Assembly (NCBI RefSeq): GCF_005405065.1
Contig: NZ_BJDI01000007.1
Location: 1 to 64,000 of the forward strand
Origin: Lactiplantibacillus nangangensis
Lineage (GTDB): Bacteria; Bacillota; Bacilli; Lactobacillales; Lactobacillaceae
Length of the DNA: 64,000 bases
Direction of reading: 5' to 3'
Shown here: in pieces, positions 396-61,061 of the stretch
How positions within the stretch are numbered: position 1 is the stretch's first letter
Layout of the letters: every line of letters begins with the position of its first letter
Program-made: the position numbers and the translations under genes
Notes under the pieces: model-generated
Database searches by the model: none
Told to the model about the DNA's origin: nothing
Seen by the model: the letters and a program-made list of their open reading frames with translations, nothing else

Positions 396-593
396 GTTGA
401 CTAGCTGTAGGTTGTTGTGGATAGCATCGGGCGTGTATGTGGCGTTTGACCGGTGTTTTTCCGGTCTTACACCACGGACCGTCTGGGAGACTTGCGGTTT
501 TGTGCAAGGCTTCCAGACGAGGGGCAAGACGTTTTTGAGGCTTGTCCCGGTCCCTCGCCCGCATGTTATCCACAACAACCGGAAGCGACAATT
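396..593 (+). repeat. Four-member structured repeat, copy 1
   Basis: About 200 bases recur at 27826-28010 and 53076-53272 on the same strand and at 60869-61061 on the other. A closing stem pairs GGTTGTTGTGGATA (410-423) with TATCCACAACAACC (567-580). Inside are three hairpins: GACCGG/CCGGTC; a GTCTGG...TTGC/GCAA...CCAGAC arm; and GGGGCAAG with CTTGTCCC. The conserved 5' flank GTTGACTAGCTGTAGG (396-411) is shared with copies 3 and 4, and the 3' tail CCGGAAGCGACAATT with copy 3. Stem bases change in pairs between copies, so structure appears to be under selection. Open frames cross it on both strands but look like a by-product of the palindromes. Confidence 0.85.
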
Positions 594-773
594 GATACAG
601 CGGGACGAATCAGTAATTTTTTTGCTTTCAACCTTTATTGACTAACTAAAACTTTCATAATCAACTTTTAAAATTACTAACACAATTATTAAATGGTCAG
701 CCCGCGCAGCCAGTTCAAGAACAACCGACTCAATTGGCTGAAACTACTATATAGCTGGAGGCGACAATGATAG

Positions 774-2084
774 TTAGGTTAATTCCGATAACAAGCAATC
801 ATAGTAAATGTTCATCATCAATTGCCAATCACTCAACTTTAGCCATTCGTCACCTTTGTGAGCGATTCCTTTTTGGCCTGGAAACGAGGGGCCAAATGCC
901 ACAATGTTTGGCATTGCCCGCGCATAAGTCGCCCCAGTTGTGGTCACCGGCGTCCCGTCCAAACCAGTATCCGCCGTATAAATTTGGGAGAAACGGTGAA
1001 TGAACGGCTGATCTGGATCCGATAGCTTGGAAGGAAAACTACGATTGATTGTGACTGCCATTTTTGGTGCTAATTGCGACTGCAGTTGGGTCAAGAGTTG
1101 TGATTCGGTCACCGAAATCGGATAACGCATCGAAATCGACGCCGTTAATTGTCCCGCTTCAAGGCACACTTGATAAAAGGAAAGCTGTAACTTTCCAGAA
1201 GCCGCATCTTCAAAGTCTAGTCCTAACCGTTGACCATCCACCTGTTGCCCAATTTTACCGGCCAACCACTGAAAGAAGTCTCCAGTTTCACCGGCGAGCT
1301 GGCTCAGTTGCGCAACCACCTTAGGTAAGACGTTGTCAGCCATATCCGGCGCATTGCTGGGTGCCTTTTTGCCGACAAATTTGGTCACCGTCCCGTCAGC
1401 TAACCCGACAGTGGCTTGGTCTGGCAAATAGCTGCGATCAAATGGGCCGGTCAGCGATTTCAACTGCGCTAACGAGCCATCAGTAATTTTGGCCGTCAAC
1501 GTTAAATCAACCAAACCACGCTCGCCATAGACGATTGGAAATTTACAATCCGGCGTAATCCCCGCGGCTGGTGCGGGTTGCGCCGCCAAGTATCGTGGGA
1601 TGTCACGACTGCCCGACTCTTCATCCGTCCCAAACATGATTCGGACGCGGTGTTTGAGCGGCACCCCTTGTTCTTTGATCAAAAATAAAGCTAACAGCGT
1701 TGCGAGCAATGGCCCCTTGTTATCCAACGTGCCACGCCCGTACAGCATATCGTCCACGCGGGTTAACTTGAATGGTGGATAATGCCAATCGTTCTCAACG
1801 TCGACCACATCCAAATGGCCCAGCACGCCGAAAAATTCTGGGTCATCCACTGGTCCGGCTTCGGCCCAACCAACACAGTCGCCCGCACGTCCTGTTCGAA
1901 ATCCCAATTTAGCCGACAGCCGCAATAAATAATCTAATGCCCGTTTGGGACCAATTCCGAATGGCGCTTCAAATGTGGCATGCCCATTCACACTTGGAAT
2001 CTGGACTAACTGGTCAAAATACGTTAAAAAGGCTGTTTCATGCGCATTGAACAAACTTTGAAATTCAGGGTTAATTGGGGTCAT
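774..2084 (-). CDS. M20-family metallodipeptidase (PepV/Sapep-like)
   Basis: A 436-aa cytosolic zinc or manganese peptidase of family M20, expected to cleave dipeptides or similar short amide-linked substrates. The metal-site motifs are intact: GHLDVVD with His90 and Asp92, GRGTLDNKGP with the bridging Asp near 121, and FGTDEESGSRD with the catalytic Glu pair near 155-156. The length fits the family (about 430-470 aa). It is the last gene of a minus-strand operon, 12 bases after an EIIC gene, with glycosylasparaginase, GntR regulator and GrdB-like genes upstream. That context suggests a role in handling the amino-acid part of an imported glycoconjugate. Family assignment is firm; the substrate is inferred. 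Confidence 0.85.
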   Translation of the reverse strand: MTPINPEFQSLFNAHETAFLTYFDQLVQIPSVNGHATFEAPFGIGPKRALDYLLRLSAKLGFRTGRAGDCVGWAEAGPVDDPEFFGVLGHLDVVDVENDWHYPPFKLTRVDDMLYGRGTLDNKGPLLATLLALFLIKEQGVPLKHRVRIMFGTDEESGSRDIPRYLAAQPAPAAGITPDCKFPIVYGERGLVDLTLTAKITDGSLAQLKSLTGPFDRSYLPDQATVGLADGTVTKFVGKKAPSNAPDMADNVLPKVVAQLSQLAGETGDFFQWLAGKIGQQVDGQRLGLDFEDAASGKLQLSFYQVCLEAGQLTASISMRYPISVTESQLLTQLQSQLAPKMAVTINRSFPSKLSDPDQPFIHRFSQIYTADTGLDGTPVTTTGATYARAMPNIVAFGPSFPGQKGIAHKGDEWLKLSDWQLMMNIYYDCLLSELT

Positions 2085-2096
2085 TTTATCAACTTC

Positions 2097-3410
2097 CTAT
2101 ACGGTACTAAAATCAATGTCAACATCGGCCACCTCAGCAGCCTTTTCTTCACGTAAATACTGATTATCGAGCATTTTAATGAATGGATAATAGATCAGCA
2201 CACCAATCACAATTTCGACCAGCTGTAGCACCGACCCCATAATGCTCCCCGTGGATAGCCAACCCGAAATAATTGGTGGTGTCGTCCACGTCAGCATGAC
2301 GCCATTGGTGAGCGGCACCCAACCTAACGAGAAGACAATCCCGGACAACACCGTATTCACGACCGGCACCAAGATGAACGGAATCGCAATAATCGGATTT
2401 AAGACGACCGGTAGTCCAAAGATAATCGGTTCATTGATCCCGAAAATACCGGGGACGATGGCTAATTTACCCAATTCTCGGACTCGTTTGGAACGACAAA
2501 TCGTCAACATGATAATTAACAATGAGAGCGTACTCCCACCGCCGCCATAGGTCGTAAACATATCAATAAATTGTTGGTTATAAATATGCGGAATTTCTTT
2601 ACCCGCTTGCCAGGCCCGCAAGTTATCTTGCGACAAGACGAAGAAAATTGGCGACCAAACACTGTTGGTGATGGTTGGACCATTAATCCCGAAACACCAT
2701 AACAAGGAAGCTAAGAAGTTGTAAAGAGCGGCAGACGGTAACGAATTTCCAACGTGCTTCAACGGTGCTTGGAGCATCGAATAAATAAAGTTATAAGCCG
2801 TGTCAAAGTCCGTCAAACTGAACATGATCCGGACAAAGAAGAAGAATAGTACGACCAAGGCACTTGGAATTAACGCATCAAAAGACTGACTTACGGCCGG
2901 TGGCACCCCGTCCGGCATCTTAATCGTCCAGTTCTTTTTCACTGCAAATCTGAAAATCTCAACACTAATAACGGCAGTTAAGATACCTAAGAAGATCCCG
3001 TTTGGTCCAAGAAAGACCGTTTCAACCGCACTAACAGACTTTTTCCCGGCTTGTACTGATGTCGGCGTCAAAATTAAGAAAGAAATAATGGCAACAGCGG
3101 CGGAATTGACCGCATGGAGGCCACGATTATGGCCGTACGCATAGGAAATCCCAAAACATGATAATAAGCCAGTAAAACTGAAAACAGAATTGGACACCGC
3201 ACTGAACCAATCGGTCCACTGCTTGCCAAGAATCCCCGTCCAAAAATCAGCCCAACCGGGAATCGGAAAGTTACCAAACAATAGGAACATGGAAGTGACA
3301 ATGATCAACGGCGTGATGATCAAAAAGCCATCCCGCAATGATCTTAACACCACGTTGTTACCGATCTTAGTCGCAACCGGCATCAAAACTTGTTCGAATT
3401 TTTTTTGCAT
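2097..3410 (-). CDS. PTS permease EIIC, lactose/cellobiose family
   Basis: A 437-aa polytopic permease, the membrane channel subunit of a lactose/cellobiose-type phosphotransferase system. The family signature GINEPIIFGLPVVLNP is present in the second half, with many hydrophobic segments throughout. No EIIA or EIIB gene lies in this operon, so it must borrow phosphoryl-transfer subunits from elsewhere, for example the EIIB at 28344-28670. It is 12 bases upstream of the M20 peptidase gene. With a glycosylasparaginase in the same operon, a sugar-asparagine compound or an N-acetylhexosamine oligosaccharide is a reasonable cargo, but this is inferred from context only. Confidence 0.85.
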   Translation of the reverse strand: MQKKFEQVLMPVATKIGNNVVLRSLRDGFLIITPLIIVTSMFLLFGNFPIPGWADFWTGILGKQWTDWFSAVSNSVFSFTGLLSCFGISYAYGHNRGLHAVNSAAVAIISFLILTPTSVQAGKKSVSAVETVFLGPNGIFLGILTAVISVEIFRFAVKKNWTIKMPDGVPPAVSQSFDALIPSALVVLFFFFVRIMFSLTDFDTAYNFIYSMLQAPLKHVGNSLPSAALYNFLASLLWCFGINGPTITNSVWSPIFFVLSQDNLRAWQAGKEIPHIYNQQFIDMFTTYGGGGSTLSLLIIMLTICRSKRVRELGKLAIVPGIFGINEPIIFGLPVVLNPIIAIPFILVPVVNTVLSGIVFSLGWVPLTNGVMLTWTTPPIISGWLSTGSIMGSVLQLVEIVIGVLIYYPFIKMLDNQYLREEKAAEVADVDIDFSTV

Positions 3411-3491
3411 AATCCTGCACCTTCTTGCAATATTTGTTTGAAATAGGTGGGCGGGCGGCGTTAAAAAACGGCGCTAACAAGTAAATCTAAT

Positions 3492-4016
3492 TCAGTAACA
3501 ATACTGACTCACAAATTCACTACGATCCGCGTGGGCCACTTTCAACTGGCAAAGGGCCAAGGCATGGTCAATCGCATCCGATAACCCAGCGCCACCCTTT
3601 TTAGGCATTTTTATAATATCTAATTGCGTCTTGAATTCTGAAAGCAACTCAGTATTCTTTTCGGACGCAACCATTGCCACCACTGGCAACTTAGAACCCG
3701 TTTGTACAGCTAGACCAACTTCACAAGCCATCCGAGAAAAATCCGGATAGTCATAAGTTGGCCCGACTAGCAGCACATCTGGCTGCATCTTTTCGCACAT
3801 CCGGGTAATTTTTCCCTGAACTAAGTCGGTGTTGGCTTGGTAATAAGCCGTTCCACAATAAAACGTCGCCATGAGACTGCCGTCTTTTTTAGCCAAATCT
3901 TTGGCAAGGGTCTCGGCTGCCCCCATCGCGAGCTTCTTACCACCTAGCTCAGTATCAGCTTTTTCTTTGCCACCGAGCCCCGCTTGAATCTGATCTAACA
4001 AGACAATAACTTTCAT
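3492..4016 (-). CDS. GrdB-like protein, N-terminal part only
   Basis: A 174-aa protein resembling the N-terminal domain of GrdB-type subunits of glycine/sarcosine/betaine reductase. The shared features are an opening VIVLLDQIQAGLGG, a FYCGTAYY segment (Cys54), a PDVLLVGP segment at 80-86 followed by a conserved Cys98, and a PVVAMVASEK strand. True GrdB proteins are much longer, about 430 aa, with a selenocysteine in the C-terminal half; that half is absent here, so ordinary reductase activity is unlikely. It lies between the GntR gene and the EIIC gene, 15 bases after the former. Function unknown; it may act on an amino-acid or glycosylamine product. Confidence 0.6.
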   Translation of the reverse strand: MKVIVLLDQIQAGLGGKEKADTELGGKKLAMGAAETLAKDLAKKDGSLMATFYCGTAYYQANTDLVQGKITRMCEKMQPDVLLVGPTYDYPDFSRMACEVGLAVQTGSKLPVVAMVASEKNTELLSEFKTQLDIIKMPKKGGAGLSDAIDHALALCQLKVAHADRSEFVSQYCY

Positions 4017-4031
4017 GAAACTCCCCTCTTT

Positions 4032-4748
4032 CTAGTGATGCCGATAAAGAATGTTATGGAATGTATACTTATCTGAACGATAATTGGAATCATCGTACAA
4101 AATTGGAAAGCCATCAACCGAAAATGCAATCGTATGGGCTAAAAATGCCGCCGAACCAGGAGCAACTGTTAATAATTTCGCTGTCGGTTCATCTAACTGA
4201 ATTGCTTCCAACTCTTGACTCGCATAGGCTATCGCCAGGTGAGTTTCAATCAGATCATATAGTGACCCTTGTGCCTTGGTTGCCGTTAATTCCGGTAATA
4301 ACTTTCGGGGAATATAAATTTGTTCATGCGTCATGGGCTCACGATCAACCAGGCGCAATCGCTCGATTTGCCACACTGGTTCGGCCGTTTCTAGGCGCAA
4401 ACCAGCTTTAATGGCCTTTGGGTAGGTCGTTAAAACGTGTAACTTTAAGACTTGCGTCGTTGGTTCTAAATGCAGGCTTTTCGCAACTTCGGTAAATCCT
4501 GCCAAGCCAGTCGCCCCACTCGATATTTTGGCCGTCGTCGCTAAAGCGTATGTCCCACGATTACGATCCTTGACGACAACTTGTCGTTTTTCTAAAACGT
4601 CAACGGCCTTCCGAATCGTTAAGCGGCTCGTTTGATAGCGTGCCGCCAAATCATTTTCAGAAGGTAGCTTTTGATGGACACCATAGACCCCCGCGTCAAT
4701 GTCGCCCTGCAGCTGATCTGCAACTTCAAGATATAGATATGTTTTCAT
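4032..4748 (-). CDS. GntR/HutC-type transcriptional regulator
   Basis: A 238-aa repressor with an N-terminal winged helix (about residues 1-70, with the family motif LPSENDLAARYQTSRLTIRKA) and a C-terminal UTRA ligand-binding domain (about 90-238, including PMTHEQIYIPRKLLPEL). It is the second gene of the operon, 28 bases after the glycosylasparaginase gene, so it is probably autoregulated. The 16-bp palindrome at 5779-5794 between the -35 and -10 elements is the likely operator; its GTATATAC core fits GntR-family sites. The effector is probably a sugar phosphate or amino sugar phosphate, as for other HutC members; the ligand is not readable from sequence. Confidence 0.88.
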   Translation of the reverse strand: MKTYLYLEVADQLQGDIDAGVYGVHQKLPSENDLAARYQTSRLTIRKAVDVLEKRQVVVKDRNRGTYALATTAKISSGATGLAGFTEVAKSLHLEPTTQVLKLHVLTTYPKAIKAGLRLETAEPVWQIERLRLVDREPMTHEQIYIPRKLLPELTATKAQGSLYDLIETHLAIAYASQELEAIQLDEPTAKLLTVAPGSAAFLAHTIAFSVDGFPILYDDSNYRSDKYTFHNILYRHH

Positions 4749-4776
4749 CCTAAACAGTCCTTGATTTAAGTGTTAA

Positions 4777-5733
4777 CTAGTCGATTGGTGCCTTGATACG
4801 TTTCTCATAGGCCGCCAACCAGGCCGGTGTAATTGGCTCAATTTTGGTCGTCCCAGCTTCTCCGGGAGTCGCCATCATAATTTTAGCGCCGTGTTCCCCG
4901 TCACCAGCAGCAAAGGTAAACTCAACATTGGTGGCTACACCCCAGTTGCCAGCCTTGTCGAGGGCAATCAGTGAAAATTCACCCGCCTTGCCATACCGCT
5001 TTTTTAATTTTTCAACAAACGGATAAACCGCCTGATCACAAGCTTGTTGCGGTGTGAGCCCCGTACCCATTAACCGTACAATCTCATAACAAAGGCAACC
5101 CTTCATAATGTCTTCACCGAGGCCGGTCGCAGCCGCCCCGCCAATCTCACTGTCACAGTAGAAGCCATCGCCAACTAGCGCAGAATCGCCCGTCCGTCCC
5201 GGTTTCTTCATAAATAAGCCGGAAGTTGACGTCCCCACTGACATCGACCCCTGTGCATCCAAACTGACCATGCCCACGGTATCATGACCATCGTAGGGAC
5301 TCAGATTCTTTGTTTGAATCTCGACTTTGCGCTTTTGCCAAATTTTTTTGGCCCGTTCAGTGAGCATCCCTTTGACTTCGAAGCCATTTAAGACGGCATA
5401 TTCCGTCGCCCCCGCCCCCACTAAGAAGCTGTTAAAATGGTGGTTACTCAAATGACGCGCCACCGAGATCGGATTTTTAATATCCTTGATCCCAGCTACA
5501 GCGCCCACCGCAAAGGAATCCCCATCCATAAACGCTGAATCCATTTCCACTAACCCTTCGGCATTCGGTAAGCCGCCGTATCCGACCGACTTAAAGAACG
5601 GGTAATCCTCGACCATTTTAATGGCCGTCTCAATGGCATCACCACTATGCCCGCCAGCCTTTAGTTGGTTCAAGCCTTCCGTTAACCCTTCATACGCCAT
5701 CCGCCAAGTGCCAATCATCGCTACCGTCATCAT
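4777..5733 (-). CDS. Glycosylasparaginase (N4-GlcNAc-asparaginase family)
   Basis: A 318-aa Ntn-hydrolase that would cleave the amide between N-acetylglucosamine and asparagine, or a related isoaspartyl bond. The autocleavage and nucleophile motif GHDTVGMV is at 149-156 (Thr152), followed by the binding loops GRTGDSALVGDG (179-190) and GGAAATGLGED (199-209), all characteristic of the aspartylglucosaminidase branch. It has no signal peptide, so it works on imported substrate. First gene of its operon, with GGAGG five bases before the ATG and a promoter, palindrome and cre directly upstream. From memory, Lactobacillus casei uses a related enzyme to process fucosyl-GlcNAc-Asn, which supports an N-glycan remnant pathway here. 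Confidence 0.88.
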   Translation of the reverse strand: MMTVAMIGTWRMAYEGLTEGLNQLKAGGHSGDAIETAIKMVEDYPFFKSVGYGGLPNAEGLVEMDSAFMDGDSFAVGAVAGIKDIKNPISVARHLSNHHFNSFLVGAGATEYAVLNGFEVKGMLTERAKKIWQKRKVEIQTKNLSPYDGHDTVGMVSLDAQGSMSVGTSTSGLFMKKPGRTGDSALVGDGFYCDSEIGGAAATGLGEDIMKGCLCYEIVRLMGTGLTPQQACDQAVYPFVEKLKKRYGKAGEFSLIALDKAGNWGVATNVEFTFAAGDGEHGAKIMMATPGEAGTTKIEPITPAWLAAYEKRIKAPID

Positions 5734-5749
5734 TACTTCCTCCCATCAT

Positions 5750-5796
5750 TGTAATCGTTTCCATTTTAGTATAGTCAGGATTGTATATACAATCAA
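5750..5796 (-). promoter_or_regulatory. Promoter, GntR operator and cre of glycosylasparaginase operon
   Basis: On the minus strand TTGATT (5791-5796) and TATACT (5768-5773) are 17 bases apart. The spacer and part of the -35 are covered by the perfect palindrome GATTGTATATACAATC (5779-5794), a good GntR-type operator. Just downstream, TGGAAACGATTACA (5750-5763) matches the cre consensus for CcpA repression. Confidence 0.85.
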
Positions 5797-5842
5797 TTCC
5801 AATATAGAATATTACTATGAGTTATATTTTGGCTGAATGTAC

Positions 5843-5880
5843 AAAAAATGGCTCGTCATTATCCGTTTCGATAATGACAA
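5843..5880 (-). terminator. Terminator after mqsRA-like pair
   Basis: GTCATTATC pairs with GATAATGAC, followed on the minus strand by a T-run. It lies just past the antitoxin stop codon. Confidence 0.75.
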
Positions 5881-5890
5881 GTCATTAGTT

Positions 5891-6334
5891 TTAATGCTTA
5901 ACATGTAGATATTGACTAACCTTTTCATTGATTTCCATCGCATGCGACTCATCGTCTTGCACTGTAAATGCCATCAAAAACTGTGGCTGTGCAATCAAAG
6001 CTTTCAACAATTTATTATTCGCTTTCGATGGAAAGGCACCAGTTTCATATAAAGCAACCGTATTTGGACTCCATCCCAATAATTCTGCTAGCTCACGTTG
6101 ACTTAGCCTAATTTTGGCACGATAAGCCTTAATTTCTCGAGGCGTAACAAGTTTAAATTGATCGCGATATTGCTGATTCGCCAGCTCAATTGCAACATCA
6201 TCTAGTTCATTATCCGCTATAATCTGGTGAGTTTTACAATCAAAGCGGGCCGGTGCTGTCACCGTGTATTCATGGTCATGAATCATAAACGTGTTCGTAT
6301 AATTTTTGACATAAGTTGATTCCATTTGGTTCAC
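5891..6334 (-). CDS. Antitoxin, MqsA/HigA-like HTH protein
   Basis: A 147-aa protein with a helix-turn-helix domain at about residues 65-120 (IRLSQRELAELLGWSPNTV), preceded by an N-terminal region with several beta-strand-like stretches. E. coli MqsA has a zinc-binding N-terminal domain with two CxxC pairs; only a single Cys is visible here, so the N-terminus is a divergent, non-zinc form. Its start overlaps the upstream toxin-like gene by four bases (ATGA type), indicating coupled translation. Expected role: bind and silence the toxin and repress its own promoter. The DNA-binding call is firm; the antitoxin call rests on its partner. Confidence 0.75.
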   Translation of the reverse strand: MNQMESTYVKNYTNTFMIHDHEYTVTAPARFDCKTHQIIADNELDDVAIELANQQYRDQFKLVTPREIKAYRAKIRLSQRELAELLGWSPNTVALYETGAFPSKANNKLLKALIAQPQFLMAFTVQDDESHAMEINEKVSQYLHVKH

Positions 6335-6627: not shown

Positions 6628-6710
6628 AAGTCATTCCTCAACTTCATTTAATAAGTGAATCTTAACACTATAGCAGCCGAAACGCTACTAATCAGTAGCA
6701 TCCTTTGTTC

Positions 6711-6745: not shown

Positions 6746-6748
6746 ACT

Positions 6749-7250: not shown

Positions 7251-7255
7251 CCCGA

Positions 7256-26378: not shown

Positions 26379-27686
26379 ATGATGGCTACTTTTACGACCA
26401 AAGACAACCAAATTTTCAAAGATGATCAACCTTGGTTTTACTTTGCCGACACTTGTTGGAGTGCCTTTACGAATATCAATTTATCCGACTGGTGCGCCTA
26501 TCTTGATAAACGGCAACAACAAGGTTTTAATGCCGTACAAATCGACATTTTACGCCAGTGGGACGCCAGCAGTTCTGCACAGTCTTTCGAACCCTTTGCC
26601 GTCAGTTCCAGAACCGCTGATCGTTACAACTATAACTATGACCAACTCAATCTAGACTATTTTAAACATGCCGGTGAGCTCTTAGACGAGGTCATTAAAC
26701 GGCACATGACACCAGTACTTGTGCTGCTATGGGGAAATTATGTTGCGGAGACTTGGATGCATCAAGCCGACTTCGTTACGGTTCCTAACAATACAATGAC
26801 ACTGGCTCAAATCAAAAACTATGTCCAATACGCGACGACTTATTTTAAAGCTTATGATCCCATTTACTTCGTTAGTGGTGACGTTGATTTTCCAACTGAT
26901 CCACAACAAGTCAACTCAATTGTGACGGCCTATGATCAAGTCTTGAAGACTGCTAAATCAGTTGATTCAAAAAGTTTATACGGCTTTCACATCAATGGTG
27001 AAAATGATCATCTACCAAAAGTATTCTTAGATCAAGTTGACTTTTTCACCTATCAATCCGGTCACGGTGCTCCCGGGCAGGCAACTGCTTATCAAATTCC
27101 GCGTGCGATGCGGGCAAAAGGGTTCACTGGTCCGATGTTCAACGCAGAACCTTGTTATGAAGCTATGCCTGAAATGGGCGCAGCGACCCCGAGCCGTTTC
27201 AACGCAAAAGCCGTTCGTCAGGCTAGCTGGTCTTCCGTCTTAGCCGGTGCTAACGCTGGTATCACTTACGGTGCTCATGGTATTTGGAGTTGGCATGTTA
27301 CTGGTGCTAACCATATCTATGGTAATGGCACGATGATGCCGCTAGATTGGCATCAGGCTTTAACGCTTCCCGGGGCACAAGATGTGAGCTTAATGGTTCA
27401 ACTCGTGTCAAAAGTCTTCGCCAAACCATTGCAACCATTGGCAACCGTTTTCCCTGAGAATCCAGCAATCATTGCTGCCGAAACCCAATTGAACGGTGAA
27501 TCACTCACAGTGCTTTACGTACCGGCCAACGTTTGTCTCGACCTCACGCCATTGAAATTAGCGGTAATTCATTCAGTAAGGGTCCTCGATCTCAGTACAC
27601 GTACCATTTACCAACCAACGATGACTGGGAATCAATTAAATATTATGGCTAGTCAGGCCGATAGTTTGGTCCTGATTAAAGCCTAA
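26379..27686 (+). CDS. DUF4038 glycosidase, GH140 (apiosidase)-like
   Basis: A 435-aa TIM-barrel enzyme of the DUF4038 type. The opening PWFYFADTCWSAFTNINLSDWCAYLDKR and QQGFNAVQ follow the family pattern. GH140 members characterised in gut Bacteroides are apiosidases acting on rhamnogalacturonan II. If this holds, it would remove apiose from plant apiosides; other beta-glycosidase activities remain possible. It is the last gene of the operon, 20 bases after GH43 with GGGGG before the ATG, and a terminator follows at 27692. No signal peptide. Confidence 0.75.
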   Translation: MMATFTTKDNQIFKDDQPWFYFADTCWSAFTNINLSDWCAYLDKRQQQGFNAVQIDILRQWDASSSAQSFEPFAVSSRTADRYNYNYDQLNLDYFKHAGELLDEVIKRHMTPVLVLLWGNYVAETWMHQADFVTVPNNTMTLAQIKNYVQYATTYFKAYDPIYFVSGDVDFPTDPQQVNSIVTAYDQVLKTAKSVDSKSLYGFHINGENDHLPKVFLDQVDFFTYQSGHGAPGQATAYQIPRAMRAKGFTGPMFNAEPCYEAMPEMGAATPSRFNAKAVRQASWSSVLAGANAGITYGAHGIWSWHVTGANHIYGNGTMMPLDWHQALTLPGAQDVSLMVQLVSKVFAKPLQPLATVFPENPAIIAAETQLNGESLTVLYVPANVCLDLTPLKLAVIHSVRVLDLSTRTIYQPTMTGNQLNIMASQADSLVLIKA

Positions 27687-27825: not shown

Positions 27826-28010
27826 GGTTGCCACTAATAGCATCGGTCGTGATGATGGTGTAAGACCGGCGTTTCTGAGCCGGTCTTACACCATGGACGG
27901 TCCGGGACAATTGCGGGCTTCGCAACTGTTCCGGGCGAGGGAGAAGACGTTTTTCAGGCTTCACCCGGTCCCACGACCGCATGCTATTAGTGGCAACCGG
28001 AGGCGGCACT
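27826..28010 (+). repeat. Four-member structured repeat, copy 2
   Basis: This is the principal content of the 414-base gap between two convergent operons. Its closing stem GGTTGCCACTAATAGCAT (27826-27843) pairs perfectly with ATGCTATTAGTGGCAACC (27981-27998), although the sequence differs from copy 1. The first hairpin is a perfect 14-bp stem, GGTGTAAGACCGGC/GCCGGTCTTACACC. The second is CCGGGACA...TTGCG/CGCAA...TGTTCCGG. It lacks the 5' flank seen in the other three copies. Confidence 0.85.
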
Positions 28011-52878: not shown

Positions 52879-52951
52879 GTACTACTTTAAATTTCATTCA
52901 ACGGTTGAAAGTGTCAAAAAAGCCATGAACCCATTAAAACTGGCGTTTGTG

Positions 52952-53075: not shown

Positions 53076-53272
53076 GTTGACTAGCTGTAGGTTGTTGCTG
53101 ATAGCATCGGGCGTGTGGGTGGCGTTTGACCGGCGTTTTTACGGTCTTACACCACGGACTGGCCGGGAGATTTGCGATTTTGGCAAAGCTTCCAGCCGAG
53201 GGGGAAGACGTCTCTCAGGCTTGCCCCGGTCCCTCGCCCGCATGTTATCAGCAACAACCGGAAGCGACAATT
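53076..53272 (+). repeat. Four-member structured repeat, copy 3
   Basis: Closing stem GGTTGTTGCTGATA (53090-53103) pairs with TATCAGCAACAACC (53246-53259). Relative to copy 1 the TGG/CCA step has become CTG/CAG, a paired change. Inner hairpins GACCGG-like, GGCCGGGAGATTTGC/GCAAAGC..CC..GCC and GGGG/CCCC arms are kept. 5' flank GTTGACTAGCTGTAGG and 3' tail GGAAGCGACAATT match copy 1. Confidence 0.85.
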
Positions 53273-53350
53273 ATTAACTATTTTTCATAGTCTTGGGATG
53301 GACCAGTAAATTTCAACTTTCAACCTTTAGTTTACCCAACCAATAACACC

Positions 53351-53548: not shown

Positions 53549-55474
53549 CTATGCTGTTTGAACTTTTGAACTGATCTTGGCACGATTCAATAAAACCGAA
53601 CTCGTCACAACTGACAATGAACTAAACGCCATCGCTAACCCCGCCAATTCTGGACTTAGGGTCAACCCAATCGCGAAGAAAATGCCGGCAGCAACTGGGA
53701 TTCCCAAGATATTGTAGATGAATGCCCAGAATAAATTGAGTTTAATCCGATTAAATGTTTTCCGACTCAAAGCCAATGCCTTATCCACATCCCGCAAATC
53801 ATTCTTAACAAGCACAATCCCACCAGCATCGATGGCAATATCAGTACCTGACCCCATCGCAATGCCAACGTCCGCGGTCGTTAAGGCCGGTGCATCATTG
53901 ATACCATCACCGACAAAAGCTACTTTACCGGTTTGTTGAAAGGCTTGGACGTGGTCCGCTTTATCGCCTGGCAAGACATCCGCAATCACTTCATCGATGC
54001 CGACTTCTGCCGCCACCGCTTCAGCGACACGTTGGTTATCACCGGTCAACATCACCGTCTTCAACCCACGTGCTTTCAACTCAGCAATGGCCGTTTTCGA
54101 TGTAGCTTTAGGCACATCTTGAATCGCAATCATGCCAATGATTCGATCCGCCAATCCAACGTAAACCACTGTTTTAGCTTCATTTTGTAATTGACTTGCG
54201 CGAGCAGTCAACGCTTGATCTAACTTGAAATCCGTCAATAGCTTATCGTTACCAACAAACCCAGTTTGACCGTTGATCACAGCGGCAACGCCTTTGCCTT
54301 CAATCGCTCGGAACTGTTCAACCGCCGTCGCCTTGATTTGGGCCGTTTTCGCGCGAGCGAGGATGGCAGCCGCTAATGGGTGTTCTGATGCGTCTTCCAA
54401 ACTGGCAGCAACCTGCAAAACTTGTGCCTCGTCACCGACAACGTCTGTCACTTGTGGCTTGCCAACGGTGATCGTCCCCGTCTTATCAAAAATGACCGTT
54501 TTGACATCGTTGACCGCTTCTAAAACTTCACCATTTTTAATCAAGATACCCATCTTGGCGCCCCGACCAGTACCGACCATTAACGCAGTCGGCGTTGCGA
54601 GGCCAAGCGCACAAGGACAAGCAATCACGACAACCGACACCGCAAAAATCAGCGCCCGCGCCACACTTGCATCCAAGAAGACGTACCAAGTTAAGAACGT
54701 CAAAATGGCTAAAATCAGGACGACCGGCACAAAGATATCCGACACTTTATCCGTCAATTTTTGAATTGGTGCATGACTATTCTGCGCTTTTTTGACGAGG
54801 TCAACGATTTGAGACAGCATTGTCTGTTCGCCAACTTTGTCTGCTTTGAGCAAGAACGTCCCCGTGCTATTCATCGTGGCGCCAATCACATGATCATCGA
54901 TTGTTTTCTCGACCGGCATACTTTCACCGGTCACCATCGATTCATCCACACTCGAACTACCCTCAACGATGACGCCGTCCACCGGTACTTTTTCGCCCGG
55001 CTTAACGCGCACGATATCGTTTAAAACAACCTCAGCTAACGGTAATTTGACGTAGTCACCATTGCGCAAGACTTCCGCATCCTTCGCTTGCAAGTTCGCT
55101 AACTTTTCCACCGCGTCAGACGCATTGTTGCGCATCCGCTCTTCGAAGACCTGCCCTAATAACACAAACGTTGTGACAAACGCCGCACTTTCGAAGAAAA
55201 CGGCCTGATTAGTGAACATCGCGTAAATACTGTATAAGTATGCGGTCATCGTCCCAATTGCGACGAGCGTATCCATATTGGAATGGTGTTTCTTAAACGA
55301 CGCCCACGCACTTTGCGCAAAAGGCCCCGCTGAAACTAGCATGATGACCGTGGTTAAAGCTAGCTGTGTCCAATTGCCACCTGGCAGCATCCAACCAAAC
55401 GGCATCAAGATCATATTAGCTAACATTGGTAATGATAAAATTAACGAAATCCAGAACCGTTTTGTCACGCTCAT
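53549..55474 (-). CDS. copA: Copper-exporting P1B-type ATPase without HMA domain
   Basis: A 641-aa heavy-metal pump. It has the transmembrane metal site [10 protein letters not shown], phosphorylation motif [13 protein letters not shown] loop, [10 protein letters not shown] hinge, and YNILGIP and [12 protein letters not shown] in the last membrane segments, the P1B-1 (Cu+/Ag+) pattern. The N-terminal heavy-metal-associated domain found in most CopA proteins is missing. ATG 55474 is preferred over 55516 since it overlaps the stop of the cupredoxin gene by one base (TAATG). The two cupredoxin proteins of the operon may deliver copper in place of the lost domain. Confidence 0.92.
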
Positions 55475-55743
55475 TAGGAGATCACCACTTTTCCTCGAAA
55501 CATGTCCATCCCACAACTAAACACAAATTCGCCTGCTTGGTCCGTGGGAACCGCAACCGTCTGAGGATCATTGAGTGGTAAATCCGTCTCAAAAGCCAAC
55601 GTTTTAGATTGAACCACGTCTAAACACCCTTGCGCATTCGTCCGGGTAAAAGTTAATTCCGCTGGCACACCTTGTTTTAAATTGACCACTTGCGGTTGAT
55701 AACCCCTGGCAACGGTAATGTTTACGTTTTGTTTTTCAGTCAT
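55474..55743 (-). CDS. Small cupredoxin-like protein, no signal peptide
   Basis: An 89-aa single beta-sandwich cupredoxin-type protein with candidate metal ligands in NAQGCLDVV and [10 protein letters not shown] (Cys and Met pairs, about 37-40 and 77-81). It has no signal or membrane segment, so it would act in the cytosol, perhaps passing copper to the ATPase with which it is translationally coupled. Confidence 0.8.
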
Positions 55744-55755
55744 CGTTAATTCCTC

Positions 55756-56127
55756 CTATTTAATGATCAATTTGCCATGGAACATATCCATCCCGCAAGC
55801 CCACTCATATTCGCCTGGCTTGCTGGTGTCAATTTCAATGGCTTTCGCTTGATTCTTCGGTAACTCTTGGTTGATGCCAAAATCACTGAATACAACGCGG
55901 TCCAAACAAGTTGAAGCGTCTTTTCGCGTGAAATTCAACACAGCTGGTACCCCTTGCTTTAAGACAACATTTTCTGGTGAGTAACCGCCACTCACCTCAA
56001 TATCGACCGACTGGCGGTCATTGGTCACGGCTGCGGCGGTACTGGTCACCTGATGCTTGCCAAAGAACCACCATAAAATAAAGCCGATAATAGCTAGGCC
56101 AACGCCTAAAACGATTAATTTTGTCAT
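55756..56127 (-). CDS. Membrane-anchored cupredoxin-like protein
   Basis: A 123-aa protein with one N-terminal membrane segment (about 4-22) and an outer or inner cupredoxin domain (about 35-123) resembling the next gene: DASTCLDRVVF and WACGMDMFHGKL hold matching Cys/Met/His ligands. The frame is open to 56184; ATG 56127 is chosen because AGGAAG lies seven bases before it. First gene of the copper operon. Confidence 0.82.
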   Translation of the reverse strand: MTKLIVLGVGLAIIGFILWWFFGKHQVTSTAAAVTNDRQSVDIEVSGGYSPENVVLKQGVPAVLNFTRKDASTCLDRVVFSDFGINQELPKNQAKAIEIDTSKPGEYEWACGMDMFHGKLIIK

Positions 56128-56166
56128 CAGACAACTTCCTCTCTCAAAAGCTGATTGTTTACCGAT

Positions 56167-56219
56167 TACATTTGTAAACCACAAAAATTATCTTACCCTC
56201 ATTGTTTACAGTTGTCAAC
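56167..56219 (-). promoter_or_regulatory. Promoter and two CopY boxes of the copper operon
   Basis: TTGACA (56214-56219) and TAAGAT are 17 bases apart on the minus strand. A perfect cop box TACATTTGTA lies at 56167-56176 downstream of the -10, and a one-mismatch box TACAGTTGTC (56207-56216) overlaps the -35. This is how CopY-repressed promoters look; the copY gene is not in the window. Confidence 0.9.
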
Positions 56220-56353
56220 GATAAAATTCAGCTGGATGCCATACCCAATTTGTATCACTAACTATTCGAAATAAGCACTGGTTATTCTCACCCGTTATTT
56301 CTATAATTGAGTGGGTTAAATAATTCTGAATACTAAGGGAGTTTTTAATAATT

Positions 56354-57394
56354 ATGAAAAGTGCGGTATTTATGCAACCAGGTAAAGTCACCATTGAAGA
56401 CATCGCTAAACCAACCGTTCAAGCTGATGACGATGTGATCATTCACGTGGTCCGAACTTGTGTCTGTGGGTCAGATCTCTGGGCATATCGCGGCCTTGAA
56501 GACAAAGCTGCCCATTCCGAAAACTCCGGCCATGAAGCCATCGGGATCGTCGAAAGTGTTGGCTCAGCCATCACGACCGTGCAACCAGGTGACTTTGTCA
56601 TCGCCCCATTCACTCATGGTTGTGGTCACTGCGCCGCCTGCTTAGCTGGCTTTGACGGTGATTGCCAAAATCATCAAGATAACTTTAGCAATGGCGTTCA
56701 AGCCGAATATATCCGTTTCCAACATGGTGACTGGGCTCTCGTTAAGGTTCCCGGTCAACCTGCCGATTACAGCGATGCCATGCTGAACTCTTTGCTCAGT
56801 TTGGCAGACGTTATGGCAACTGGTTATCATGCCGCTCGGGTTGCTAATGTGAAAACTGGCGATACGGTCGTCGTTGTCGGTGACGGTGCCGTTGGGCTTT
56901 GTGGGGTCATTGCTGCTAAACTCCGTGGTGCTAAACGCATTATCGCGATGAGTCGCCATGCAGACCGGCAAGCATTGGCCCGTGACTTTGGCGCGACCGA
57001 TATTATCGCTGAACGTGGTGATGAGGCCATCGAAAAAGTCATGGCTTTAACGAACCAAGCTGGCGCCGATGCAGTTTTAGAATGTGTCGGGACTGAATTG
57101 TCCAACGAAACCGCAATGAAAGCCGCTCGTCCTGGGGCAATCGTTGGCCGGGTCGGTTTACCTCATGAACCAAAGATGGATATGACCGCTTCTTTCTACA
57201 ACAACACGATTATCGCTGGTGGCCCAGCTTCCGTCACGACTTACGACAAACAATTACTCCTAAAGGCTGTTTTAGATGGTGATATTCAACCTGGGAAAGT
57301 CTTTACTAAACGCTTCACACTTGATGAAATTGATGACGCTTATCAAGCAATGACCAAGCGCGAAGCCATTAAAGCCCTCATCACGATCGACTAA
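56354..57394 (+). CDS. Zinc-dependent alcohol dehydrogenase (MDR)
   Basis: A 346-aa zinc-containing dehydrogenase. The catalytic Cys and His are visible in CVCGSDLWAYRG and GHEAIG, the structural-zinc cysteines in GCGHCAACLAGFDGDC (the fourth Cys at the end), and the NAD(P) motif in VVGDGAVGLCGV. Expected to oxidise or reduce an alcohol/aldehyde; substrate unknown. Divergent from the copper operon but with separate promoters. Confidence 0.9.
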   Translation: MKSAVFMQPGKVTIEDIAKPTVQADDDVIIHVVRTCVCGSDLWAYRGLEDKAAHSENSGHEAIGIVESVGSAITTVQPGDFVIAPFTHGCGHCAACLAGFDGDCQNHQDNFSNGVQAEYIRFQHGDWALVKVPGQPADYSDAMLNSLLSLADVMATGYHAARVANVKTGDTVVVVGDGAVGLCGVIAAKLRGAKRIIAMSRHADRQALARDFGATDIIAERGDEAIEKVMALTNQAGADAVLECVGTELSNETAMKAARPGAIVGRVGLPHEPKMDMTASFYNNTIIAGGPASVTTYDKQLLLKAVLDGDIQPGKVFTKRFTLDEIDDAYQAMTKREAIKALITID

Positions 57395-57402
57395 AACGAC
57401 TT

Positions 57403-57437
57403 AAAACCGCTACCCAATTTTTGAGTAACGGTTTTTA
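57403..57437 (+). terminator. Terminator after alcohol dehydrogenase gene
   Basis: AAAACCGCTAC...GTAACGGTTTTTAT stem with T-run, nine bases past the stop codon. Confidence 0.85.
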
Positions 57438-57508
57438 TTGGTGGCGTTTTCACATCTTAGTTGTGTATATGTTATACTTTAAAAAAGTATACATAAGGAG
57501 TGTAATTC

Positions 57509-57814
57509 ATGGCTAAACAAATTTTAAATGATGATAGTAAATACTATCGGCGGCATTCCACTGCCGACATTGTTTTCGTCGTTGTCTTTCTACTTTCAAT
57601 TTTCATCATGAAAGTCTTATTCGCCCCAATTCTGGTCATCTTAATTTACGTGCTCTACACCGAATTCAATGGCCAAGTCCTTGTGTCACCGGTCGATAAT
57701 AAGATTGAAAAGGTCTGGATCACGAAGGCAACTTGGAAAGCTTACAAAAAGCGCCATCACATTTCGACTTGGAGCGAGTATAACGCTGCAATGATCGACA
57801 ACAAAAAATTTTAA
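57509..57814 (+). CDS. Small unrecognised membrane protein
   Basis: A 101-aa protein with a hydrophobic stretch (about 20-50) that can make one or two segments and a basic C-terminus (KAYKKRHHISTWSEYN). No known family. AAGGAG lies upstream of the ATG, and -10-like TATACTTT and TATACAT sites lie just before. Confidence 0.6.
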   Translation: MAKQILNDDSKYYRRHSTADIVFVVVFLLSIFIMKVLFAPILVILIYVLYTEFNGQVLVSPVDNKIEKVWITKATWKAYKKRHHISTWSEYNAAMIDNKKF

Positions 57815-57817
57815 TTT

Positions 57818-57851
57818 AAAAACCGCCACCCAAATCGGATGACGGTTTTTT
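57818..57851. terminator. Bidirectional terminator
   Basis: AAAAACCG...CGGTTTTTT stem between convergent genes. Confidence 0.85.
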
Positions 57852-57861
57852 GAGCTCATTT

Positions 57862-58434
57862 TTACTTTTCGACCGCAAAACCACCGGTCCAGCCAATGGT
57901 TTCTTTGGCCGCTAGAGTCATCTGCAAGAAACCAAAGCTTTCTAATTCACGGGCCCGCTTCAAAGCACCGGCGTCAACAAAGGCAACACCACTATCCTTC
58001 AAGGCTGCCGCTAAAGCTTCTTTGGCATCATTGGAATCACTGGCGGCCATAACAGTGGTCTGTTGGCCACCAACTTTACGACTCTTTAACGTTGCAGCAA
58101 AAGTCGTATTGAAGACCTTGACCACTGTCGAGTCCATCAATAGCCGCTGGATTTCTTCAGCAGCAGAACTGTCTGAAGGGACCACTAAGTCATCCCAAGT
58201 GTCGAAGTTTAAAGGATTCGTAATATCGACAACAATTTTTCCAATTAAAGCAGCTAAGTTGGTTTTAGCGATACTGATTGCGGCTGGATACGGCACAGCC
58301 AAGACGACGATGTCACCTAAGTCTTTCACTGGATCACCATTGCCCAAGTATGTGACGTCATTGCCACCTTGCTTGAATACATCACCAATTGCTTGACCCA
58401 TGTTTCCCTTACCAAAAATCGTAATTGCTGCCAT
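57862..58434 (-). CDS. NAD(P)-binding reductase, F420-dependent-reductase-like
   Basis: A 190-aa Rossmann-fold protein with GKGNMGQAIG at the N-terminus and the VLAVPYPAAISIAK and VVDITNPLNFDTWD segments of the NADPH:F420 reductase-like family. Lactobacilli do not make F420, so it is probably an NADPH-dependent reductase of another small molecule. Single gene. Confidence 0.85.
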   Translation of the reverse strand: MAAITIFGKGNMGQAIGDVFKQGGNDVTYLGNGDPVKDLGDIVVLAVPYPAAISIAKTNLAALIGKIVVDITNPLNFDTWDDLVVPSDSSAAEEIQRLLMDSTVVKVFNTTFAATLKSRKVGGQQTTVMAASDSNDAKEALAAALKDSGVAFVDAGALKRARELESFGFLQMTLAAKETIGWTGGFAVEK

Positions 58435-58538
58435 AAAACCAACCTCCTAATTAGTTAAGTGTATTTGTTTACGCTTTCAAATTACGATAATTATCATCAT
58501 CTGTCAATTTATTAGTTTATGGCGACTGATTTATTTAT

Positions 58539-58580
58539 AAAAAAAGCCCAATCAACCGACTAACTGATTGACTGGGCTTA
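58539..58580 (-). terminator. Terminator after NagE-type PTS gene
   Basis: AGCCCAATCA...TGATTGACTGGGCT stem with T-run on the minus strand, overlapping the region just after the stop codon. Confidence 0.93.
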
Positions 58581-58587
58581 ATGGCAC

Positions 58588-60570
58588 TTATTTAGTTGTT
58601 GCCGTTAAAATCTTAGAGCTTGTCTCAACTTCATTGGACATAATCTTGAACTTCAATAGTCCAACTGTTGCCATATTCGTAATGATGACGATCATCGGCG
58701 TTTGCTTGCCGGCAGCTTTGATGGCATCCAAATCAACCTTGGCGACCACATCGCCATGTTTGACCGTTTGACCATCAGTCACTTGCACGTCAAATGGCGC
58801 ACCCTTCAATTCAACCGTATCAATCCCCATATGCAGTAAGACTTCTAGCCCAGATTCTGTCTTGAAACCAATGGCATGTTTGGTTGGGAACACCGTTGTA
58901 ACCGTCCCGTCAACTGGCGCGGTAATGGTCCCAGTAGTTGGTTCAACGGCAAAGCCATCACCCAACATCTTCTGCGCAAAGGTATCATCTGGCACTTGCT
59001 CAATATCCAGATAAGTCCCGTCCGCCACGCTGTAGAAATCAGCGGTCAAGCCAGACTTAGCGTCACTAACTGGGGCCGTTTCCGCGGGAGCGGCAGTAGT
59101 GGTCGTTGTTGAAATTGGCGCATTCGTCGCTTTCAATTGTGACAACGCATCCGCCACGAATTGAACTTCGGTCCCAACGATGATTTGCAAATTATGCTTA
59201 TCTATCTTATTAATTCCTGGAACGCCTGTCCGCTTGATTGCGGCCTCATCAATCTTATCCGTATCTTCAAGTTGCAACCGCAAACGGGTCGTACAATTGT
59301 CGACAACTTGCAAGTTTTCAGAACCGCCTAAAGCGGCATAAATCTTTTTAGCTTGAATCGTGTATTTATCATCCGTACTATCTTCAGGAACATCAATCGC
59401 ATCGGCTTCATCCGCAGCCGTCAATGGTTCGCGGCCAGGTGTCATCAAATTGAATTTCTTAATGGCAAAGTCGAAACCAAAGTAGTAAATGGCGGCCATG
59501 ACTAATCCTTGGAGAACCAACATCAATGGGTGGTTCGCAATTGGGTTCTTTAAGCTCAAAACAAAGTCGACTAACCCAGCACTGAAGGCGAAGCCCGCCG
59601 TCCAATGCATAAAGGCAGCAAAAGCTAATGATAGCCCAGTGAAGATTGCGTGTAACACATATAATGGCCATGCCACAAACATGAAGGAGAATTCCAATGG
59701 TTCGGTGACCCCGGTAAAGAATGACGCAAAGGCCCCGGCCATCATTAATGACGCCGTTTCAACTTTGCGTTCTGGCAAAGCATTACGGTAAATGGCATAG
59801 GCCCCAGCTGGTAATCCGAACATCATAACTGGGAAGAACCCAGCTTGATACATCCCGGTAACCCCTTTGACCCCTTTAGAAGCCAAGAACTTACCAATAT
59901 CATTAATCCCAGCAACATCAAACCAGAAAACAGAGTTCAAGGCTTGGTGTAACCCAGTTGGAATCAGTAACCGGTTGAAGAAACCGTAGAGTCCAGCCCC
60001 AACCGCGCCTAAGCCTAAAATGAACTTACTGAAAGCGACCAAAACGTTATAAACTGGTGGCCAAACGAGTAATAACAGCACACTGACAACTAACATTACG
60101 AGCGCTGCTAAGATTGGGACTAATCGCTTCCCACTAAAGAAGGATAACGCCATTGGTAACTTGGTTTCATGGAACCGATTGTAGAGTGCCGCAGCAATCA
60201 GCCCGGATAAGATCCCGATAAAGACATTACCAATTTGTGCGAACGATGGATCAACGGCCGTTACTTTGAGATTCAACAAAGTGGCCACGGATTCTGGCTT
60301 CAAAACGTTGGTTGGCATTTCAAAGGCAACCAGTCCAGCCATTGCGGCCGCACCGTCCTTATCCTTGGACATCCCTAATGCTAACCCGACCGCGAACAGT
60401 AGTGGTAATTGGCCTAAAACCGCATTCCCACCAGCTTGTAAGAAATGGGCAACGACATCTGAGCTATAAGAAGCCCACCAGTTCCCAATCCCAACTAGCA
60501 ACGCAGCGGCTGGTAGAACCGCCACAGGTAGTTGCAATGAACGACCCATGCGTTGTAAATATGCTTTCAT
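58588..60570 (-). CDS. nagE: PTS permease EIICBA, N-acetylglucosamine/glucose type
   Basis: A 660-aa complete permease in order EIIC (about 1-360), EIIB (about 395-475, phospho-Cys in VDNCTTRLRL) and EIIA (about 510-640, with KHAIGF and LLHMGIDTVEL). The order C-B-A and the opening MKAYLQRMGRSLQLPVAVLPAAALLVG are those of NagE-type N-acetylglucosamine permeases, though glucose is a known alternate cargo. It could supply GlcNAc to the same downstream pathway as the glycosylasparaginase operon. Upstream a cre lies inside the promoter. Confidence 0.9.
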   Translation of the reverse strand: MKAYLQRMGRSLQLPVAVLPAAALLVGIGNWWASYSSDVVAHFLQAGGNAVLGQLPLLFAVGLALGMSKDKDGAAAMAGLVAFEMPTNVLKPESVATLLNLKVTAVDPSFAQIGNVFIGILSGLIAAALYNRFHETKLPMALSFFSGKRLVPILAALVMLVVSVLLLLVWPPVYNVLVAFSKFILGLGAVGAGLYGFFNRLLIPTGLHQALNSVFWFDVAGINDIGKFLASKGVKGVTGMYQAGFFPVMMFGLPAGAYAIYRNALPERKVETASLMMAGAFASFFTGVTEPLEFSFMFVAWPLYVLHAIFTGLSLAFAAFMHWTAGFAFSAGLVDFVLSLKNPIANHPLMLVLQGLVMAAIYYFGFDFAIKKFNLMTPGREPLTAADEADAIDVPEDSTDDKYTIQAKKIYAALGGSENLQVVDNCTTRLRLQLEDTDKIDEAAIKRTGVPGINKIDKHNLQIIVGTEVQFVADALSQLKATNAPISTTTTTAAPAETAPVSDAKSGLTADFYSVADGTYLDIEQVPDDTFAQKMLGDGFAVEPTTGTITAPVDGTVTTVFPTKHAIGFKTESGLEVLLHMGIDTVELKGAPFDVQVTDGQTVKHGDVVAKVDLDAIKAAGKQTPMIVIITNMATVGLLKFKIMSNEVETSSKILTATTK

Positions 60571-60623
60571 GTGCTTTCCCCCTAGAAAAAATGAATAACT
60601 GCTGTAATCTTATTTCGAAGCTA

Positions 60624-60652
60624 AGCTTACAGTAAAGAAAGCGCTTTTTCAA
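60624..60652 (-). promoter_or_regulatory. nagE promoter with cre in the spacer
   Basis: TTGAAA (60647-60652) and TAAGCT (60624-60629), 17 bases apart, with the cre-like TGAAAAAGCGCTTTCTTT (60634-60651) covering the spacer and -35 on the minus strand. A second, ATGTAA/TTACAT dyad lies farther upstream at 60758-60786. Confidence 0.7.
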
Positions 60653-60868
60653 TCACTTTTCATTGGTCTAGATGGGTTTTAAAACAATCGTTATATCAGA
60701 TTGACTGGTGGTCTGGGATTAATCGAACCGGTTTTAATGATTGGTGTGTAAGGAAAAATGTAAGCGGTGTAATAATTGGTTTACATTCTGGATTGATGGC
60801 GAAAAATAAATAAAAAAATATTGGTTTTCAGATTTAAACCGCGATCAGGTAATGAAAGATAGACGTCA

Positions 60869-61061
60869 ATTGCCGCTTCCGGTTGTTGTCGATAACATGT
60901 GGCCGAGGGACCAGGGCAAGCCAAAAACGTCTTGCCCTCGCCCGGAGGCTTTGCCTAAACCGCAAATCTCCCGGCCGGTCCGTGGTGTAAGACCGGAAAA
61001 TCGCCGGTCAAACGCCACCCACACGGCCGATGCTATCAACAACAACCTACAGCTAGTCAAC
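60869..61061 (-). repeat. Four-member structured repeat, copy 4
   Basis: The same element on the minus strand. Its closing stem is GGTTGTTGTTGATAGCAT, with GTTATCGACAACAACC on the other side, where one A-T pair has become a G-T wobble. Inner hairpins: GACCGG/CCGGTC, CCGGGAG...TTTGC/GCAAA...CTCCGG, and GGGCAAG/CTTGCCC. 5' flank matches copies 1 and 3. The open frames across it on both strands look like a by-product of the fold. Confidence 0.85.

Follow-up and report, generated by a model that had tools for sequence, protein, structure and literature searches.

A structured repeat core of Lactobacillaceae, in part the cargo of MITEs probably moved by ISPepr1-type transposases

What kind of sequence changes the letters of its stems from copy to copy and keeps the pairing? 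The question is raised by a 64,000-nucleotide stretch of the Lactiplantibacillus nangangensis genome (the window), in which a first-pass annotation had noticed four copies of a structured repeat and had proposed either a structured RNA or a structure-dependent, REP/RAYT-like mobile repeat. It appears rather probable that the copies belong to non-autonomous mobile repeats of Lactobacillaceae whose core is partly the cargo of a MITE moved by IS4-family, ISPepr1-type transposases.

Copies in the window and their fold

Alignment confirmed the positions of the four copies, and each of them combines a long closing stem and three hairpins. Their intergenic placement held as well, as no ORF of at least 100 aa overlaps any of the four; an 82-aa TTG ORF (397-645) overlaps copy 1. 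The four copies are real, but they are not a four-copy set, because positions 204-356 carry a fifth core, which is degenerate, and the genome yields 101 matches. Likewise, the coordinates given for the copies stood, but around copies 1 and 3 the element in each case reaches beyond them, to terminal repeats. The features are as follows.

106..113, no strand: left target-site repeat of the copy 1 element, TTGGCTAA, imperfect and read by eye
114..127, plus strand: left terminal inverted repeat of the copy 1 element, CTAAAGGTTGCAAG, 1 mismatch
204..356, minus strand: degenerate core, inverted partner to copy 1 (covariance model 53.5 bits, E 1.8e-12)
396..593, plus strand: copy 1, structured core (model match 417-575)
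625..638, minus strand: right terminal inverted repeat of the copy 1 element, CTTTCAACCTTTAT, 1 mismatch
638..645, no strand: right target-site repeat of the copy 1 element, TTGACTAA, read by eye, with 1 mismatch to the left repeat and starting on the final base of the called terminal repeat
27826..28010, plus strand: copy 2, structured core (model match 27833-27993), flanked by no recognisable terminal repeats
52898..52911, plus strand: left terminal repeat of the copy 3 element, weak, 3 mismatches
53076..53272, plus strand: copy 3, structured core (model match 53097-53254)
53317..53330, minus strand: right terminal repeat of the copy 3 element, exact
60869..61061, minus strand: copy 4, structured core (model match 60886-61040)

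The conserved unit is a core of 160-200 nt made of the long closing stem and the three hairpins. Hairpin 1 is typically GTGGCGTT/TTACACCAC, and hairpins 2 and 3 are closed by GGAC/GGTCC. The region 396-600 has a folding energy of -111.8 kcal/mol (z -9.3), and none of 200 shuffles was equally stable. The stem exchanges that first drew attention are genuine letters: TGGATA/TATCCA in copy 1, CACTAATA/TATTAGTG in copy 2, CTGATA/TATCAG in copy 3, and a wobble in copy 4.

The claim that structure is kept under compensatory change received strong support when covariation was gauged by pair counts against shuffles and slid partners. In alignment A3, made of 112 distinct sequences, two-sided changes occur at every one of the 54 base pairs, none of 500 shuffles did as well, and 91.4% of cells are paired versus 37-42% with slid partners, counts that are flattered because A3 was aligned by a model already holding this structure. 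In the plain MAFFT alignment A2, 87.6% of cells are paired and 37 of the 54 pairs have a two-sided change. Mismatches within pairs are also informative. Among 77 thinned rows, 154 were GT and 79 were AC (32 versus 10 pairs), a ratio of about 2:1, where column make-up predicts about 1.1:1. Because G-T exceeds A-C in this way, we infer that the folded form of the core is a single strand, as RNA or ssDNA.

Distribution of the core

A covariance-model search of Lactobacillaceae, as the first-pass annotation had recommended, found matches in 88 of 397 genomes and 10 of 40 genera, own genome included. The source genome has 101 matches at E <= 1e-3, with 140 of 571 candidates scored. Within the genus, 15 of 21 genomes carry matches (again with the own genome) and six have none at that threshold. 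Copy number can be high: 101 matches in G000, 133 in G004, 131 in G016, 46 in G020, and at least 150 in G351. Sites vary between relatives. A site occupied in G020 is empty in daoliensis, and one occupied in daoliensis is empty in pingfangensis. Copies at an equivalent place in other species are damaged; in genome G011, for example, the intergenic region equivalent to that of copy 2 contains a copy whose hairpin 2 is damaged.

The fold matched no described RNA family, as had been suspected: Rfam 15 at the gathering score gave no match in the window, and with copy 2 at E <= 10 the best sub-threshold match reached 25.9 bits versus 50, nothing credible. No match was found among plasmids and phages (blastn, copy 1 as query) or among viral contigs (one exact pattern), and protein-based anchoring of the window neighbourhood in genome contigs found nothing. 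None of the matches listed in a literature search, in which subscription journals are little covered, describes the element. The repeats form a large and apparently undescribed family of non-coding mobile DNA in lactobacilli, often with at least 100 copies per genome.

Ends, duplications and an IS4-family relative

How does the core move? In some genomes it lies within a MITE of about 320-560 bp that has 14-bp ends, CTAAAGGTTGAAAG, and 7-9 bp target-site duplications. It is part of the family only that is short, has terminal inverted repeats and lacks a long ORF in this manner. A stop-free stretch of 80 codons is absent from 8 of 11 MITE loci (L321-L328, L330, L331, L334), and in the other three such stretches run to 83-93. 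Among 371 distinct copies, a count that leaves out loci fetched by their ends, terminal repeats with at most 2 mismatches were found on the left in 78, on the right in 76, and on both sides in 43, whereas a reversed-end control gave 0, 1, and 0. Copies with both ends come mainly from G020 (18/21), daoliensis (15/54), and G000 (8/47). There were none among 78 copies of fabifermentans, 19 of g16, 25 of other Companilactobacillus, and 11 of G306. G359 has 220 exact ends versus 0 in the reversed control.

The duplications, read by eye, are clear (7-9 bp, at most 1 mismatch) in 8 of 11 both-ended G020 copies (L059, L061, L063-L066, L069, L070) and unclear in L060, L062, and L068. Two from G359, also by eye, are TTAGTTCA and ATAACTAA. 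Around bare cores of L. fabifermentans, direct repeats were not convincing (best offset 3/55 versus 0.5 in permuted pairs).

The MITE ends are shared with an autonomous type of element. They bound an IS4-family (ISPepr1-type) insertion sequence in G020, locus L380, which is 1567 bp long and has an open frame of 466 codons, CT ends, the duplication ATAGGAG, and a YREK motif (YARRWQIEGYFKIAK). Both ends, with at most 2 mismatches, occur at five of seven IS4-family loci examined (L380-L383 and L385; genomes G020, G359, G011, and G017), and G020 is where a long open frame stands beside them. ISPepr1 elements are described as 1500-1600 bp long, with ends that mostly begin 5'-CT and with duplications of 7-8 bp; together with a YREK motif, these features serve as subgroup criteria (PMC2266710). 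By its ends, length, duplication, and YREK motif, L380, the presumed mover, would fall within this subgroup. Nine ORFs within end-bounded stretches were considered as transposases. Six are ordinary genes (an MFS gene, two GntR genes, a helicase, a kinase, and a hydrolase), two had no or a weak match, and one is a transposase fragment (L320). In G000, the IS4 model matched nothing at E <= 1e-20. Because both ends occur mainly in a few genomes and never in others, the IS4 route does not explain the whole family. Taken together, terminal repeats, target duplications, ends common with IS4-family insertion sequences, and empty sites bear out the view of a mobile repeat, and the family is best read as mobile, MITE-like repeats whose core is under selection.

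The repeat is comparable with several known systems. Like ISPepr1-subgroup MITEs, it is short, non-coding, and high in copy number, and shares its ends and 7-9 bp duplications with an insertion sequence. It differs in carrying a multi-branched covarying core, which mostly occurs without CTAAAGGTTGAAAG ends; the core model had no match in 13 IS-bearing loci searched (L320, L335-L339, and seven others). The bcr repeats of the Bacillus cereus group, as described in PMC3446304, are dispersed and intergenic, with bcr1-3 MITE-like and bcr10 and bcr18 conserved in secondary structure; Bcr1 is also listed with conserved structure in PMC2267715. They resemble the present repeats by description only, and they have other hosts, whereas the fold here is traced over 10 genera. 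BOX of Streptococcus pneumoniae is described as a modular structured repeat for which ISSpn2 was proposed as mover via similar ends (PMC3049150). The likeness, a structured repeat with IS-like ends, is again one of description only, and BOX has other modules and another host.

What keeps the fold

One explanation is a host non-coding RNA or cis-regulator under selection at each site. The strong covariation across 10 genera and the excess of G-T over A-C would fit such an RNA. Still, this reading is unlikely, since unrelated genes flank the different copies in the window, six of the 21 genomes of the genus lack a match at E <= 1e-3, and copies at equivalent places are damaged. There is also no excess of upstream promoters among 368 copies (score of at least 9: 28.5% forward, 25.5% reverse, 31.8% shuffled), and downstream T-runs occur at only 7.9% of copies, yet more than the 2.4% of shuffles. 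With no promoter excess and a weak T-run excess, an independent sRNA gene was rejected. In tandem gene pairs, with genes called by ORF length only, isolated copies are antisense in 69 cases versus sense in 19, which also argues against a host RNA. An ordinary MITE with an unselected fold, in which the pairing arises incidentally from inverted repeats or gene conversion, would account for the terminal repeats and duplications, and good folding is reported as common among MITEs (PMC10969869). It is a quite unlikely account, because the pairs are internal and multi-branched, distinct from the terminal repeats; each pair in A3 shows two-sided change in some rows; and the G-T to A-C ratio departs from that predicted by column make-up.

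A third explanation, close to the mobile-repeat proposal of the first-pass annotation, is a REP/REPIN-type repeat that is moved by a RAYT (Y1) transposase and spreads via folded ssDNA. REPINs are inverted doublets of a palindromic unit, and the present cores, which appear to fold on one strand, are found as inverted pairs too. Copies in G351 oppose replication (left half 45 minus versus 29 plus, right half 46 plus versus 15 minus; p 2.8e-5), as counted among the 135 matches listed and with the origin assumed near the contig start. But no Y1_Tnp at E <= 1e-5 was found in G000, G004, G016, G020, or G351, which carry from 46 to at least 150 copies. The domain is not missing from the family, being present in 7 and absent in 7 of 14 genomes searched at this threshold. 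The visible ends come with 7-9 bp duplications, as for a DDE transposase. A REP is a palindrome of 20-40 bp according to PMC3733652, whereas the core has 160-200 nt and three hairpins. With its size and five carriers devoid of a Y1 transposase, the REP/RAYT-like label did not survive, and this reading is highly improbable.

The favoured reading, of a mobile MITE-like element under selection for its core, may work as follows. The core, single or as an inverted pair, would in part of the family be the cargo of the MITE. IS4-family, ISPepr1-type transposases would act on this MITE in trans, and its insertion would leave the 7-9 bp duplications, nearly always in intergenic DNA. The fold would be maintained because it helps the copies that retain it to spread or to survive. 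Our best guess is that the fold serves as a single-stranded signal for propagation or tolerance of the element rather than as a host gene at each site.

A many-copy, 54-pair covarying fold that has no match in Rfam 15 shows how much is missed when food and gut bacteria are annotated. It also raises a general question that can be tested: what would make a DNA parasite retain an RNA-like fold? The covariance model, the terminal repeats, and a relative's IS4-type transposase with an open frame offer direct handles on it. More tentatively, the core may represent a new class of structured nucleic acid, single-stranded as RNA or ssDNA, that leads a selfish life of its own in Lactobacillaceae and perhaps also outside the family, spread bare in some lineages and hitched to IS4-type transposon ends in others.

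Copies in the window and their fold

The four copies of a structured repeat claimed in the first-pass annotation were found in the window, and the stem swaps quoted for them are genuine sequence differences. A match to the covariance model R1, which was built from 29 copies of several species, adds a degenerate partner of copy 1.

204-356, degenerate core, inverted relative to copy 1
396-593, copy 1
27826-28010, copy 2
53076-53272, copy 3
60869-61061, minus strand, copy 4

Copies 1-4, aligned with their flanks, have a mean column identity of 75%, and the fold of window 396-600 gives a z of -9.3 against 200 shuffles. An apiosidase-like enzyme (26379-27686) adjoins copy 2, and a WxL-domain surface protein (61751-62353) adjoins copy 4.

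The core consists of a closing stem and three hairpins. In a plain MAFFT alignment of 29 rows (A2), 87.6% of the cells were paired and 37 of 54 pairs showed two-sided change, values each equalled by none of 500 shuffles; shifting partners by 1-3 columns lowered pairing to 33-43%. In a model-fitted alignment of 112 distinct rows (A3), which favours the structure, 91.4% were paired and all 54 pairs showed two-sided change, the pair-change counts being of sequences and not of events. The commonest pairs of the lower stem of hairpin 1 were retained in 81-108 of these 112 rows. Because the selection patterns for A2 rows required GTGG.GTT, TTACACCA, GGAC, GAG, and GGTCC, constancy at these motifs is partly by construction. 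GAC in the loop of the third hairpin was invariant in A2 though absent from the selection patterns.

Stem mismatches point to folding of one strand, as written here, in the form of RNA or single-stranded DNA, because G-T mismatches exceed A-C mismatches. The counts were 230 versus 118 in A3 (575 versus 525 expected from column make-up) and 132 versus 72 in another core alignment, A4 (315 versus 283 expected). A thinned set of 77 rows less than 80% alike gave 154 versus 79, with G-T ahead at 32 pairs and A-C at 10 (sign test p 0.0009), and fitting of the alignment to the model may contribute to the excess. The closing stem (for example in loci L099 and L093 and in window 396-593) contains recurring internal loops with GGA on each side, at varying heights: CCGGAGG close to the ends in some species, and TAATGGAATCG/CGATGGAATTA further inside in fabifermentans. 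These loops may form tandem G-A pairs.

Distribution and variants of the core

With blastn, 40 matches were obtained in the own genome (the best 40 of 95 candidates), and core matches occurred in 13 of 60 genomes, own included, every one of the same genus. The covariance model search suggested as a check extended the repeat to 88 of 397 Lactobacillaceae genomes and 10 of 40 genera (R1, E<=1e-5). R1 was positive in 15 of 21 genomes of the genus, the richest reaching at least 140 matches, and found 101 in the own genome among the best 140 of 571 candidates. Among the matches listed, carriers include Lactiplantibacillus pingfangensis, fabifermentans, daoliensis, herbarum, xiangfangensis, and mudanjiangensis, as well as Companilactobacillus kedongensis, Companilactobacillus nantensis, and an uncultured Lactobacillus MAG. 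Order-wide, 18 of 395 sampled genomes were positive, two of them from another family, at E 3e-7 and 2e-8. Plasmids and phages gave zero matches to copy 1, and viral contigs zero matches to one exact core pattern.

The core fold looks modular. A short form in four genomes (G010, G013, G091, G151; L401-L405) has the closing stem and hairpins 1-2 without hairpin 3, and the relatives outside Lactobacillaceae (L398 and L399 in G661, L400 in G435) are without hairpin 1. The closing stem of L398 passes through CCGACCG/CGGTCGG with a T-run adjoining, and may serve as a terminator.

Terminal repeats and the presumed mover

Near-identical copies in genome G020 revealed that the core sits within a longer element whose ends are CTAAAGGTTGAAAG...CTTTCAACCTTTAG. 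Duplications of 7-9 bp adjoin the ends; by eye they were clear in 8 of 11 two-ended G020 copies, and they were also seen beyond these, including in G359, where complete single-core elements of ~320 bp are present. Exact ends numbered 220 in G359, 28 in G020, 12 each in G009 and G306, 7 in the own genome (G000), and 4 in G351, with 0 in all six for the reversed-end control. Among 371 distinct copies (<=2 mismatches, loci fetched by their ends left out), 78 had a left end, 76 a right end, and 43 both; the reversed control gave 0, 1, and 0.

Copies with both ends, as a fraction of distinct copies
G020: 18/21
daoliensis: 15/54
G000: 8/47
G359: 1/10
pingfangensis: 1/21
G004: 0/13
xiangfangensis: 0/13
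herbarum: 0/11
fabifermentans: 0/78
G306: 0/11
G351: 0/11
other Companilactobacillus: 0/25
g16: 0/19
g38: 0/5
g42: 0/3
others: 0/29

A site occupied in G020 (L063) lacks the element in daoliensis (L174), and one occupied in daoliensis (L082, 458 bp) has just 78 bp, without ends, in pingfangensis (L091); these comparisons are not base-precise because the species have diverged. Damaged copies occur in pingfangensis at the same place as copy 2 and in G001 (L042) at a place common to daoliensis L086, which argues against strong selection at each single site.

In G359, a broken DDE_5 transposase lies inside one stretch bounded by CTAAAGGTTGAAAG/CTTTCAACCTTTAG-type ends. In a tblastn search with a 104-aa transposase piece, 60 plasmid records carried relatives, including records from Lactobacillaceae and Enterococcus; the two tested (L. 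crispatus, L. fermentum) scored as IS4 family with NF049925 and have related ends with 3 mismatches. An IS4-family search (E<=1e-20) was positive in 4 of 16 genomes (G020, G359, G011, G017). The G020 IS spans 1567 bp, has CTAAAGGTTGAAAC and CTTTCAACCTTTAG as its ends and ATAGGAG as its duplication, and contains a 466-codon open frame and a YREK motif. Size, ends, duplication, and YREK agree with the values that PMC2266710 tabulates for the ISPepr1 subgroup. R1 gave no core match in 13 IS-bearing loci. The own genome had no match to the transposase family (E<=1e-20), and its copies therefore seem to be remnants of earlier activity. An L. plantarum plasmid (L335, NZ_CP035114.1 65919-71164) carries an IS4-type remnant with one exact CTAAAGGTTGAAAG end and no gene annotated for it in the table.

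Orientation and gene context

Divergent core pairs (minus then plus) are frequent, with 31 pairs listed and 44-273 nt between matches. With ORFs defined by length alone, 2 of 380 distinct copies overlapped ORFs >150 aa. Of 301 copies flanked on each side by an ORF, 210 had the gene 3' of the core on the opposite strand and 91 had it on the core's own strand. Between tandem genes the core was antisense in 108 cases versus sense in 56, and 69 versus 19 for isolated copies (156 in all; p 8e-8). The two halves of the G351 chromosome held 29+/45- and 46+/15- (p 2.8e-5; 135 matches listed of at least 150), a bias that presupposes an origin near the contig start. Most genes run co-directionally with replication, and the half bias and the antisense bias may therefore be one bias counted twice.

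It is safe to state that this is a MITE-like mobile repeat carrying a covarying structured core. Its interest rests on the conservation of that core and on the spread of copies without visible terminal repeats.
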